This document shows, piece after piece, positions 13,454-55,195 of a stretch of DNA of 64,000 nt. The position numbers and the translations under genes were made by a program. Source of the stretch: Verrucomicrobia bacterium S94 (GTDB taxonomy: Bacteria; Verrucomicrobiota; Kiritimatiellia; Kiritimatiellales; Pontiellaceae); NCBI GenBank assembly GCA_004299845.1, contig CP036201.1, positions 1,674,001 through 1,738,000 on the forward strand. Reading direction: 5' to 3'. The notes below the pieces were generated by a model, which worked only from the letters and a program-made list of their open reading frames with translations, was not told the DNA's origin and searched no databases. How positions within the stretch are numbered: position 1 is the stretch's first letter; each line of letters starts with the position of its first letter.

Positions 13454-13890
13454 TTCTCTCGCTAAGGCGCAAAGACGCCAAGTTAAAGGCCGTTTACTAT
13501 CCGTTTAATTCCATTTTTAATGAGGTTGTCCCCAAAATTGATCAGTAACCCCAACCTTTTCCCAGAAAGCTTCAGGTACGTCAGCAACTGTTTCTTATGC
13601 ACATCCTTAATGGTTTCAACTGACTTGAGCTCTATGATGACTTTTTCATTAACCATCAAATCAGCTCTAAAACCTTCATTTATAATTCGATCGTGATACA
13701 CGATCTCTATCGGAGCCTGACGAACGACTGATAATCCTCTTTCTTCCAGCTCATCGGCCAAAATGATTTCATAAACACTCTCTAACAATCCCGGGCCGGT
13801 TTCTTTATGAATATGAAAAGATGCATCAACGACAATCTGAGCTATTTCATTTTCATTCATACTTAGCGCCTTTGCGTCTTAGCGAGAGAA
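13454..13890 (-). mobile_element. Candidate small mobile element: GxxExxY gene between inverted repeats
   Basis: Inverted arms of 29 bases lie at 13454-13482 and 13862-13890 and match at 26 positions. Each arm is made of imperfect 8-base units (CGCTAAGG, CGCAAAGA, CGCCAAGT). The gene fills the whole interior. The element sits 3 bp from the trpG start codon and 2 bp from the trpE stop codon, so it entered the operon without damaging either gene. No target-site duplication is clear. Calling it mobile is inference, supported by a decayed second copy at 42098-42429. Confidence 0.55.
13483..13860 (-). CDS. GxxExxY family protein
   Basis: The 125-residue protein has the signature [10 protein letters not shown] at about residues 22-31 and the ending of the family ([17 protein letters not shown], then [19 protein letters not shown]). 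Asp and E-x-K in this arrangement recall the PD-(D/E)XK nuclease core, so a nuclease-like fold is plausible but not proven; the function of the family is not established. The start ATG lies right at the right arm, whose AAAGG could act as ribosome binding site. It is co-directional with trpE and trpG and has nothing to do with tryptophan synthesis in known biology. Confidence 0.85.
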
Positions 13891-27053: not shown

Positions 27054-27087
27054 TTCCTTCCGTCCATGTATTTGGTGTATTTCGTGA
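27054..27087. repeat. Lone repeat arm upstream of purN
   Basis: The segment with TTCCGTCCATG and GGTGTATTTCGTGATCA follows the same 8-9 base pattern as the right arm of the hairpin at 54250-54321 (TTCCGTGTG, AGTGTATTCCGTGG). I find no partner arm nearby. Together with the GC-rich imperfect repeat near 27001-27040 it fills the purN leader. Confidence 0.4.
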
Positions 27088-53206: not shown

Positions 53207-54241
53207 TCACCAGGCAGTGAGCTGAGAGCGTATCAGCTCGCTGCCTGTGTGTTTACTTACCCAGGAGAGCAGTTCTTCTGCACCCGGAGAACTGCTCTTC
53301 TTTTTTTTAAGGATCGCCACGGCATTTTTACGCAACTGCGTTACGCCCGCATATTCAGTCGCATTTCCTTTGATTAAACGTCGGATCTCCCCCGCCGGTG
53401 ATTTCAAAAGCCACTCCAGATCAACCGGAATCCGGGTATCGACCTTATCTTTCGGCGGACAGACCACCGAACACCAGTCACAACCGAAAAGCCAGTCCTC
53501 AATCATTTTCGCTTCTTTAAAATTAAGAACGGATCTTTTCTCGATTGTGAGATAACTGATGCAAAGCTGCGCATCAATCGGATCGCCAAACCGGATCGCC
53601 CCGGTTGGACAGTTTTTGATGCAGGCCCGACAGTCATCGCAGGCAAAGGGCATTTTCGGTTCATGAATCACCTCCGGAAGCTCCCGATCCACAAAAAGAC
53701 AACCGATAAATACCCGGACATTGGTTCGAGCCGGCACACGGAGCAGATCATTCGCCCCACGAATACCCAGCCCGCCGACCGTCGCAAAGAGCCGTTCATA
53801 TACCGCTTTCGTATCCACTGCGGCCTCGGCCTGAAGATCTTCACCCAGTTTATCTTTCAGTGCCGCAAGCATCCGCTGACCGGCACGGTGATAATCCAGC
53901 TCCCGGGCATAGGCCGAAATATAGCCCAGCAGTGCATCGTTTCCTGGGATGGGAAACGGGTGCCTTGCTTCCGGATCGCCCCATTTATTCGTAAACGTCA
54001 GCACAATCACTGATTTTGCAAACGGAAAAGCATTCCACGGATCAGCCTTATCCGGAAACATCCGTTCCAGGTAATCCATCTCCCCCTGTTTACCGGACTC
54101 CAGCCACGCACGGTGCAACGCACTGTTTTCCGTAATGCGCTTCTTCAGAACAGGATTATCCAAACGGATACACGCCGCCGAAAACGCACCGATTTCCCGG
54201 GCGGTTTCCTGCAACCATTCTGTAAAATTTTCTAAATCCAT
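53207..54241 (-). CDS. queG: Epoxyqueuosine reductase
   Basis: The last step of queuosine synthesis in tRNA, dependent on cobalamin and two 4Fe-4S clusters. The clusters bind at CDDCRACIKNCPTGAI and CDWCSVVCPP. The family segment CISYLTIEKRS is also present. The 344-residue reading starts at 54241, just inside an inverted repeat. Other queuosine genes are not in the window. Confidence 0.95.
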   Translation of the reverse strand: MDLENFTEWLQETAREIGAFSAACIRLDNPVLKKRITENSALHRAWLESGKQGEMDYLERMFPDKADPWNAFPFAKSVIVLTFTNKWGDPEARHPFPIPGNDALLGYISAYARELDYHRAGQRMLAALKDKLGEDLQAEAAVDTKAVYERLFATVGGLGIRGANDLLRVPARTNVRVFIGCLFVDRELPEVIHEPKMPFACDDCRACIKNCPTGAIRFGDPIDAQLCISYLTIEKRSVLNFKEAKMIEDWLFGCDWCSVVCPPKDKVDTRIPVDLEWLLKSPAGEIRRLIKGNATEYAGVTQLRKNAVAILKKKKSSSPGAEELLSWVSKHTGSELIRSQLTAW

Positions 54242-54249
54242 TTTAAGCA

Positions 54250-54321
54250 CCACGGAACACACTGAATACACGGAAGGTTCCTGAATTGCGATTTTTTCCG
54301 TGTGTTCAGTGTATTCCGTGG
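54250..54321. repeat. Gene-less inverted-repeat element between queG and the PGM-like gene
   Basis: Arms of 26 bases (54250-54275 and 54296-54321) match at 24 positions around a 20-base loop. Each arm has CACGGAACA, CACTGAATA, CACGGAA units, the same build as the GxxExxY element arms. The left arm ends 8 bp from the queG start codon and the right arm lies 20 bp before the next gene. No U-run follows the stem. Confidence 0.65.
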
Positions 54322-54340
54322 TTTAGCCTCCGCTCCCACG

Positions 54341-55195
54341 ATGAGCAACGGTTTAAAAATTCTATTTATCTTTGTGGATGGATTCGGGCTCGGCTCCGAC
54401 AATCCTGTCGTTAACCCATTGCGCGATTCCCGTTTTACAAACCTTGGAAAACTGCTTGATTCAGCCATTCCGATCGATGCGTGCCTCGGCGTCGACGGCA
54501 TCCCGCAGAGTGCCACCGGCCAGGCCTCGCTCCTTGGCGGCTTCAATGCCCCGCAGGCCATGGGCCGGCATATTGAAGGCTTCCCCCCGCCCCGACTCAA
54601 AAAACTGATCGAAAAAGAGAATATTTTTTCCAAACTTCGGAAACTCGGCAAAGCCCCCACCTTTGCCAATGCCTACTGGATCGACGACCCGCTCAATATT
54701 CCGCTCAACCGGCAATCTGTCACGACGGTCATGGCACTGACAGCCAACGGCAAAGTGCGCCATAAAGATGAACTGCTGAACGGAAAAGCCGTCAACCACG
54801 ATATCACCCGCTGGACCATGCACGAGCGTGGATACGACGGTCCCCATATTTCCGAAGAAGAGGCTGCCGCCCATCTACTGACGGTAGCGGCGGAACACGA
54901 CTTCACCCTGTACGAATATTTTCTGACCGACCGTGCCGGCCACTCCGGTAATCCCGAGCTGATTTTCCAATGCCTGAAGTCGCTCGAAAAATTTCTTCCC
55001 ATTACCGCAACATTCGGAAATCACCCTAATCAGCTGTTTCTGCTCTGCTCCGACCACGGCAACATCGAAGACCGCACAACCCGAACCCACACCCTCAATC
55101 CCGTCCCGCTGATCGCCATCGGCGATGGTGCCGAACACTTCCAATCCCTGGAAAATCTCGCCGACGTTACCCCTGCTATCCTTCGTTTATTCTGA
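54341..55195 (+). CDS. Phosphoglycerate-mutase-like metalloenzyme
   Basis: The 284-residue protein belongs to the alkaline-phosphatase superfamily branch of cofactor-independent phosphoglycerate mutase: metal Asp in FIFVDGFGLG, the likely nucleophile in SATGQASLLGG, DRAGHSGN and SDHGNIEDRTTRTHT for the second metal. It is much shorter than true iPGM, so the exact substrate is not clear. The ATG at 54341 begins just before the fold. Confidence 0.8.
   Translation: MSNGLKILFIFVDGFGLGSDNPVVNPLRDSRFTNLGKLLDSAIPIDACLGVDGIPQSATGQASLLGGFNAPQAMGRHIEGFPPPRLKKLIEKENIFSKLRKLGKAPTFANAYWIDDPLNIPLNRQSVTTVMALTANGKVRHKDELLNGKAVNHDITRWTMHERGYDGPHISEEEAAAHLLTVAAEHDFTLYEYFLTDRAGHSGNPELIFQCLKSLEKFLPITATFGNHPNQLFLLCSDHGNIEDRTTRTHTLNPVPLIAIGDGAEHFQSLENLADVTPAILRLF

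Follow-up and report, generated by a model that had tools for sequence, protein, structure and literature searches.

The 64-kb window (the whole stretch of DNA analyzed here) carries a hairpin at 54249-54322, in the gap between the divergent start codons of a queG-like gene and a phosphoglycerate-mutase-like gene. The features of this locus, with one further arm found in the window, are as follows.

27063..27086, minus strand: single decayed arm of the window hairpin's dialect (19.3 bits; partner arm not recognized)
53207..54241, minus strand: queG-like gene (ATG at 54241; TIGR00276, E = 1.3e-43, under the curated cutoff; PF08331, above its cutoff)
54249..54275: left arm of the hairpin, three 9-base units, ACCACGGAA-CACACTGAA-TACACGGAA (arm model match, E = 9.9e-7)
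54276..54295: loop, 20 nt, with the core TGAATnGC common to same-site copies in relatives
54296..54322: right arm of the hairpin, inverted (arm model match, E = 1.2e-6)
54341..55195, plus strand: metalloenzyme/phosphoglycerate-mutase-like gene (ATG at 54341; PF01676, E = 2.8e-19)

The two 27-nt arms are complementary at 25 of 27 positions (93%) around the 20-nt loop; a sequence-only reading of this DNA had described the same structure one base shorter (26-base arms, 24 matches, 20-base loop). Its further claim of an 8- to 9-base unit build was borne out, since each arm consists of three 9-base units of the CACnGAAT type facing their inverse. Folded as DNA, the hairpin reached −26.6 kcal/mol, compared to −9.05 ± 2.17 for shuffled sequences (z = −8.1; 0 of 200 shuffles as good). 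Its 74 bases occupy 74 of the 99 nt that separate the two start codons, leaving 7 nt to the queG start and 18 nt to the phosphoglycerate-mutase-like start. The earlier statement that it lies between divergent genes without touching them holds for the ATG starts; the gap is merely 99 nt long, and GTG-started ORFs at this gap can be read into the hairpin. A known Rfam RNA was also considered and rejected, as the three matches, all to miRNA models, were weak and far below gathering scores.

To determine how widely this hairpin is dispersed, we searched the 4.11-Mb, single-contig genome and the 29 genomes of the family. The genome-wide arm search suggested by the sequence-only reading showed the hairpin to be multicopy rather than unique: blastn with the window hairpin returned 22 matches in its own genome, and an arm sequence model (R1) returned 28 at E ≤ 10, 21 of these at E ≤ 0.1. 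R1 was built from 12 of 14 arms, after removal of one that was not arm-like (L006:1924-1950) and one that was decayed (L016:1503-1529). With a structure model (R2), nine short-loop hairpins were recognized in loci of this genome, the window's included (L063, L204, L007, L051, L012, L004, L005, L016, and L021), several of them clearly decayed. R2 matched at E ≤ 0.01 in 24 of the 29 family genomes and had no match at this threshold in G005, G006, G007, G011, and G017. R2 matches were counted on both strands, so that the 70 in G010 represent about 35 hairpins. Two side observations concern repeats in G000. By eye, arms of the window hairpin's dialect also lie in an apparently repeat-rich, RHS-like coding region (2946007-2949270; L003, L011, and L018). 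An approximately 200-bp repeat with ends of its own (TATACCAAACGTTAAAAC... and ...GTTTTAGTAAATGGTAT) encloses a CGCAGAGA/CGCTGAGA hairpin near 1154624, 1935210, 2254587, and 3252745 (L413, L416, L418, and L422), the hairpin riding in a MITE-like repeat.

Arm statistics were drawn from 93 listed family hairpins, 91 of which had a length of at least 58; the 79 of those that scored 55 bits or more were the ones used. The arm consensus was A-CCACGGAAT-ACACnGAAT-ACACGGAA. Loops ranged from 7 to 34 nt (79 copies) and were unlike from site to site; those at least 75% alike came from copies with similar flanks, apart from three pairs involving L113. Near-identical loops in pairs of copies from different sites, which a recent burst would give, were absent from this comparison. 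T, C, and A are about equally frequent at arm position 15 across copies, yet within a copy the two arms matched there in 72% of cases, versus 28% expected (n = 79). Over all positions, the within-copy arm match was equaled in 0 of 2,000 permutations (79 copies). The flanks show a preference for T at −3 and for A at +3; an A at −1 together with a T at +1 lengthens the stem to 28 pairs. No target-site duplication beyond expectation was detected (k of 2 to 9, 80 copies), and no recent insertion was caught among the copies compared.

The arms are not confined to gene-less hairpins. The genome contains six PF13366 matches, and GxxExxY elements are mostly about 420 to 500 nt long with one gene each; four-helix-bundle genes are also present in this genome. 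Two GxxExxY elements bear directly on the window hairpin.

13454..13890, minus strand: the window's own GxxExxY element (arms 13454-13483 and 13861-13890; gene 13486-13860; TIGR04256, E = 1.3e-41)
1634406-1634841 of the genome: GxxExxY element with the window hairpin's arm (gene 1634441-1634785; PF13366, E = 2.1e-40)

On either side of the gene at 1634441-1634785 stand ACCACGGAACACACTGAATACACGAA and an imperfect inverse of it, and the window hairpin is identical to the arm at 1634406 over 24 of 24 nt (blastn, E = 1.4e-5). Copies of the arm that enclose a GxxExxY gene, which the sequence-only reading had proposed to look for, thus exist here and, as described below, in several other phyla. The arms of the element at 13454-13890 are of a related kind but speak another dialect (CGCAAAGA); the window hairpin is therefore not the empty form of that element, which we excluded as its parent. 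Solo hairpins of the latter dialect (CGCnAAG) did not stand out in this genome, where pattern matches (9 + 15) were fewer than in the reversed control (40 + 34); at 2 of the 20 CGCnAAG match loci examined, the match lay inside a hairpin of a related dialect within another repeat. The gap that holds the 13454-13890 element (L024) contained same-dialect GxxExxY elements in five cases among relatives and another dialect in one (L134).

Arm dialect follows the protein that the arms enclose. Among the matches listed, arms were recognized by score in 64 of the 74 GxxExxY loci of the genus examined, and 61 of the 74 entered a comparison of protein similarity with arm similarity (Mantel r = 0.559; 0 of 2,000 permutations), in which some pairs are orthologous loci and add to the correlation. 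On a tree of 86 proteins, 18 of them without a dialect label, the label changed 11 times compared to 35.2 times when shuffled (0 of 200), and 16 of the 17 rows with the window hairpin's dialect grouped together. A scan for the exact 27-mer arm across phyla, which is free of the orthologous-locus effect, is described below. Taken together, arm dialect tracks nuclease phylogeny across phyla. All 86 proteins contained the catalytic D and K as well as the E and Y of the GxxExxY motif, and 80 contained a second acidic residue (E). The AlphaFold model (pLDDT 94.9) had as its top PDB match SSO0001 (4ic1; E = 2.2e-4), which we take to be a Cas4 protein, with weaker matches to LHK-Exo and RecE. Judged by this model, the GxxExxY protein appears to be a small, active PD-(D/E)XK nuclease, and from the covariation of arm and protein we infer that it may act on the arms. 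Proteins of the matching subfamily (at least 60% identical to L123) were found in 9 of the 29 genomes. Hairpins were equally common in some genomes, all 94 to 95% complete, in which no such nuclease was found (31 matches in G003, 27 in G028, and 29 in G012); the presence of the subfamily nuclease was accordingly rejected as an unconvincing predictor of hairpin number.

The exact 27-mer arm occurred in at least 119 stretches of genome contigs, many of them metagenome-assembled genomes (MAGs) in which binning errors are possible. Listed titles included Verrucomicrobia, Kiritimatiellae, Lentisphaerae, Planctomycetes, and several proteobacterial classes, and further Aquificaceae, Thermoflexales, Riflebacteria, and Paludibacteraceae. 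Among the matches listed, the 127 exact-arm places comprised 37 hairpins with loops of up to 60 nt, 13 with 61 to 250 nt, 12 with 251 to 700 nt, 1 longer, and 64 single arms with no recognized partner. Fifteen exact-arm loci among these matches had a GxxExxY match of at least 80 bits, which in 12 lay no more than 200 nt from the arm. One of the 12 (L250) comes from the genus. The remaining 11 proteins, again among the matches listed, were 56 to 64% identical to the protein encoded at 1634441 and up to 69% identical to same-dialect relatives in the genus, compared to 27 to 50% for the four GxxExxY proteins of this genome that have other arms. In seven viral contigs with the exact arm, no GxxExxY or four-helix-bundle match was found in the stretches examined. 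As a separate observation, the arm in one contig labeled viral (L429, 2440-2560) extends as a longer run of 9-base units.

The anatomy of these elements varies. In L317, L251, and L236, the gene lies between two complete, near-identical hairpins facing the same direction (95% over 121 nt, 89% over 103 nt, and 98.7% over 79 nt, respectively); in L304 and L237, hairpins on both sides of the gene are less alike. Two hairpins from one deltaproteobacterial MAG (L269 and L216) have loops of about 90 nt that match the last 61 to 87 nt of a GxxExxY gene at 77 to 89% identity, so that gene-less hairpins can arise by internal deletion. These were the only two such cases seen, and 74 loops of the genus compared with the GxxExxY gene gave no remnant signal (7.65 versus 7.34 when shuffled). 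Two other loci (L302, 2079-2486; L297, 1334-1735) have a predicted GxxExxY start codon ahead of or within the arm, and part of that arm would consequently be read as protein (MEPRNTQNTRK...).

We then examined where the hairpins sit. With gene context taken from a simple ORF caller, 47 of the 93 family hairpins lay between codirectional genes, 16 between divergent genes, 7 between convergent genes, 8 inside a called ORF, and 15 at an edge. Once the hairpin was removed, the residual gap was 40 nt or less at 37 of the 47 tandem sites; as a control, gaps of that size contained 6.6% of the intergenic bases between tandem genes in these loci (169 control gaps). This bias toward short gaps reflects either a preference in insertion or a bias in retention.

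At the window's own site, queG was found in 26 of the 29 genomes. The hairpin was present in the queG gap of eight (G000, G002, G010, G013, G019, G020, G021, and G026), with a loop core close to TGAATnGC. Seven (G003, G004, G009, G017, G022, G023, and G025) had queG and the same neighbor across a compact gap of 40 to 41 nt with no hairpin. G015 and G018 also had a compact gap, next to an apparent broken remnant of the neighbor gene, for a total of nine. Queries for that neighbor detected none beside queG in eight genomes, and the queG region of G014 was cut. The G026 copy (L080, 1432-1496), which was left out of R2 because its loop is inverted, carries that loop in the orientation opposite to that of the other species, as would result from a flip of the hairpin. 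On the queG tree, the filled state requires four changes, and strongly supported branches force at least two. Five hairpin-filled genomes, this one included, form a supported clade; by this topology, the hairpin was inherited within the five-genome clade and elsewhere underwent gain, loss, or exchange along with the region. The copy in the queG gap is thus probably old and by now inherited within its clade. Of the two outcomes that the sequence-only reading had named as counting against it, uniqueness did not hold, and conservation in place held within the five-genome clade and failed across all relatives, given the nine compact gaps.

Other gaps proved to be occupied by different elements in different species. 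Before a dprA-like gene, the ten genomes read included G002, empty with overlapping genes, and hairpins of the dialects CACnGAA (G000, G016, and G020), CACTAAT (G003 and G019), CACnAAG (G021 and G028, one by eye only), CACGAAT (G010), and CACGAAA (G026). In the L005 gap, read in nine genomes, G019, G020, and G021 were empty, the window hairpin's dialect was present in G000 and G028 and decayed in G002, a CACAGAG hairpin was present in G010, and other palindromes were present in G003 and G026. The gap before an RNase-III-like gene was empty in 7 of 11 genomes, with the window hairpin's dialect in G025, another dialect in G026, and other sequence in G003 and G010. The miaA-hflX-like gap contained hairpins of two dialects and, in G026, a shrunken four-helix-bundle gene that has arms of its own; this gene with inverted arms (L361; G026:C250:6330-6740) lies in a gap that has solo hairpins in relatives. 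When 156 items were clustered on the basis of both flanks, 21 sites emerged that had at least two members. At three of these (L158/L196 versus L135, L103 versus L144, and L165 versus L399), a solo CACnGAA hairpin in one species was opposite a GxxExxY element, with arms of another or unassigned dialect, in another.

Together, these results suggest that the window hairpin belongs, as a solo copy without a gene, to a dispersed family mobilized by the matching GxxExxY nuclease subfamily, a reading to which we assign a probability of about 55%. The best reading of the family as a whole is that it is, or once was, served by its cognate nuclease, through a route of cutting and mobility that would run as follows. 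The matching-subfamily nuclease would recognize the arm as a hairpin or cruciform and nick its cognate arm. Acting in trans, the nuclease would thereby allow the hairpin to be copied into, or moved to, narrow gaps between cistrons; one arm may be copied from the other, keeping the two matched. Counting against this reading are the abundance of hairpins in genomes where no matching-subfamily nuclease was found, the lack of target-site duplication and of near-identical loops at different sites, loops that show no trace of a gene, and the 64 of 127 exact-arm places at which no partner arm was recognized. The sequence-only reading, which had likened the hairpin to an empty form of the GxxExxY element, as MITEs are to transposons, stands in part: the arm is shared with the gene-bearing element at 1634406-1634841, the hairpin is multicopy, and the queG gap is filled in eight genomes and compact in nine. 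Two points were not supported: the window's own element has another dialect, and the short loops show no interior of a partner, as a MITE in the strict sense would.

An alternative, which we consider unlikely, is that the hairpin is an RNA or DNA element useful to the host between genes (in RNase III processing, mRNA stability, or translation control), its spread being secondary. The hairpin is kept in place in five neighboring species, and in an alignment of the queG site (7 rows) 93% of cells are paired and three pairs have changed on both sides (5 of 500 shuffles as high); arms that stay matched in place could mean selection on the hairpin. Its closeness to two start codons (7 and 18 nt), the strong bias to intercistronic gaps, and the sharing of one gap across species by hairpins of different dialects, as if only shape mattered, point the same way. 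However, nine relatives have a compact queG gap with the hairpin absent, relatives at other sites have overlapping genes and no hairpin, and host selection does not account for the occurrence of this arm around GxxExxY genes of other phyla.

Origin as a strict MITE, in which a GxxExxY element once inserted at the queG gap lost its interior, seems to us quite improbable. The L269 and L216 loops, which match the tail of a GxxExxY gene, are what this history would leave, whereas the 74 genus loops carry no signal above shuffled sequences, and a GxxExxY gene was seen at the queG gap in no relative. Very doubtful, too, is a history in which the hairpin came first and spread by other means, with nuclease genes later captured between two hairpins, or in which recombination between two flanking hairpins leaves a solo copy, as solo LTRs are left. 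Genes between two direct, near-identical hairpins (L317, L251, and L236) and the abundance of hairpins in genomes without the subfamily nuclease agree with such a history, but captured genes are not expected to have arms whose dialect tracks nuclease phylogeny from phylum to phylum. We give hardly any credence to a REP/REPIN mobilized by a RAYT (Y1) transposase: the hairpin is a dispersed palindrome of REPIN-like size in a genome with five Y1_Tnp genes, but no arm (at least 18 of 27 positions) was found in the 1.5-kb flanks of any of the five, and the hairpin is without the GTAG or CGTC tag of REPs (tags as named in the title of PMC3733652). An intrinsic terminator, which the stable stem might suggest, is in effect refuted by the position between divergent starts, a scan with zero terminator-like sites, and the lack of a T run outside either arm.

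The reading as a solo hairpin served by a cognate nuclease is nearest in logic to REPIN/RAYT systems, in which inverted-repeat hairpins are dispersed extragenically and each REPIN class adjoins its own transposase gene (PMC3116915). The partner there is a Y1 tyrosine transposase, whereas here it is a PD-(D/E)XK-type nuclease, with no Y1 link found. Correia/NEMIS and other MITEs, as described in PMC2229807 and PMC10969869, have terminal repeats of similar length (NEMIS, 24 bp) and hairpin transcripts for which RNase III has been proposed; most of them, however, end in TA, duplicate their target, and share an interior, whereas the loops here differ and no duplication was detected. A strict MITE retains the ends of its parent's interior, of which the short loops here have no trace. 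The closest described element is the 23S rRNA intervening sequence (IVS); that of Coxiella burnetii is a 428-nt element with 28-bp terminal stem-forming inverted repeats and an S23p four-helix-bundle ORF, excised by RNase III (PMC4990558). The likeness lies in an element of about 430 nt that has terminal inverted repeats and a single small ORF in its loop and has been described as selfish, and, on our side, in the shrunken four-helix-bundle element whose gap holds solo hairpins in relatives. Unlike the IVS, which lies in rRNA, is cut by RNase III, and encodes a protein of another fold, the elements here carry a nuclease gene and occupy gaps between protein genes, and their arms are unit-built, with dialects; the window hairpin, between two protein genes, is outside the rRNA location of that class.

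The GxxExxY family itself (TIGR04256/PF13366, PDDEXK_3) is defined on the protein alone, and its gene is the one inside the arm-bracketed elements. By title and abstract, we found no description of GxxExxY arms or solo hairpins in the literature searched, a scope that lay outside most subscription journals and bioRxiv, and by title and abstract start the papers on GxxExxY/PF13366 did not treat such elements. The arm system looks undescribed, and a hairpin family with subfamily-specific arms suggests a form of selfish DNA not previously described. We propose tentatively, at somewhat short of even odds, that GxxExxY nucleases and their arms form a selfish class that spans bacterial phyla, in which every nuclease subfamily would read an 8- to 10-base arm word of its own, move gene-less hairpins in trans into gaps between adjacent genes with no target duplication, and compete with other dialects and with four-helix-bundle (IVS-type) elements for those gaps. 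These comparisons place solo hairpins in one niche with GxxExxY genes and four-helix-bundle elements, offer a testable function for a common but unexplained protein family, and suggest a readable protein-to-arm code conserved between phyla. An older proposal, cited in PMC4990558, held that rRNA intervening sequences are mobile and that their ORF serves that mobility; the hairpin-nuclease family revives it in a form that can be tested.
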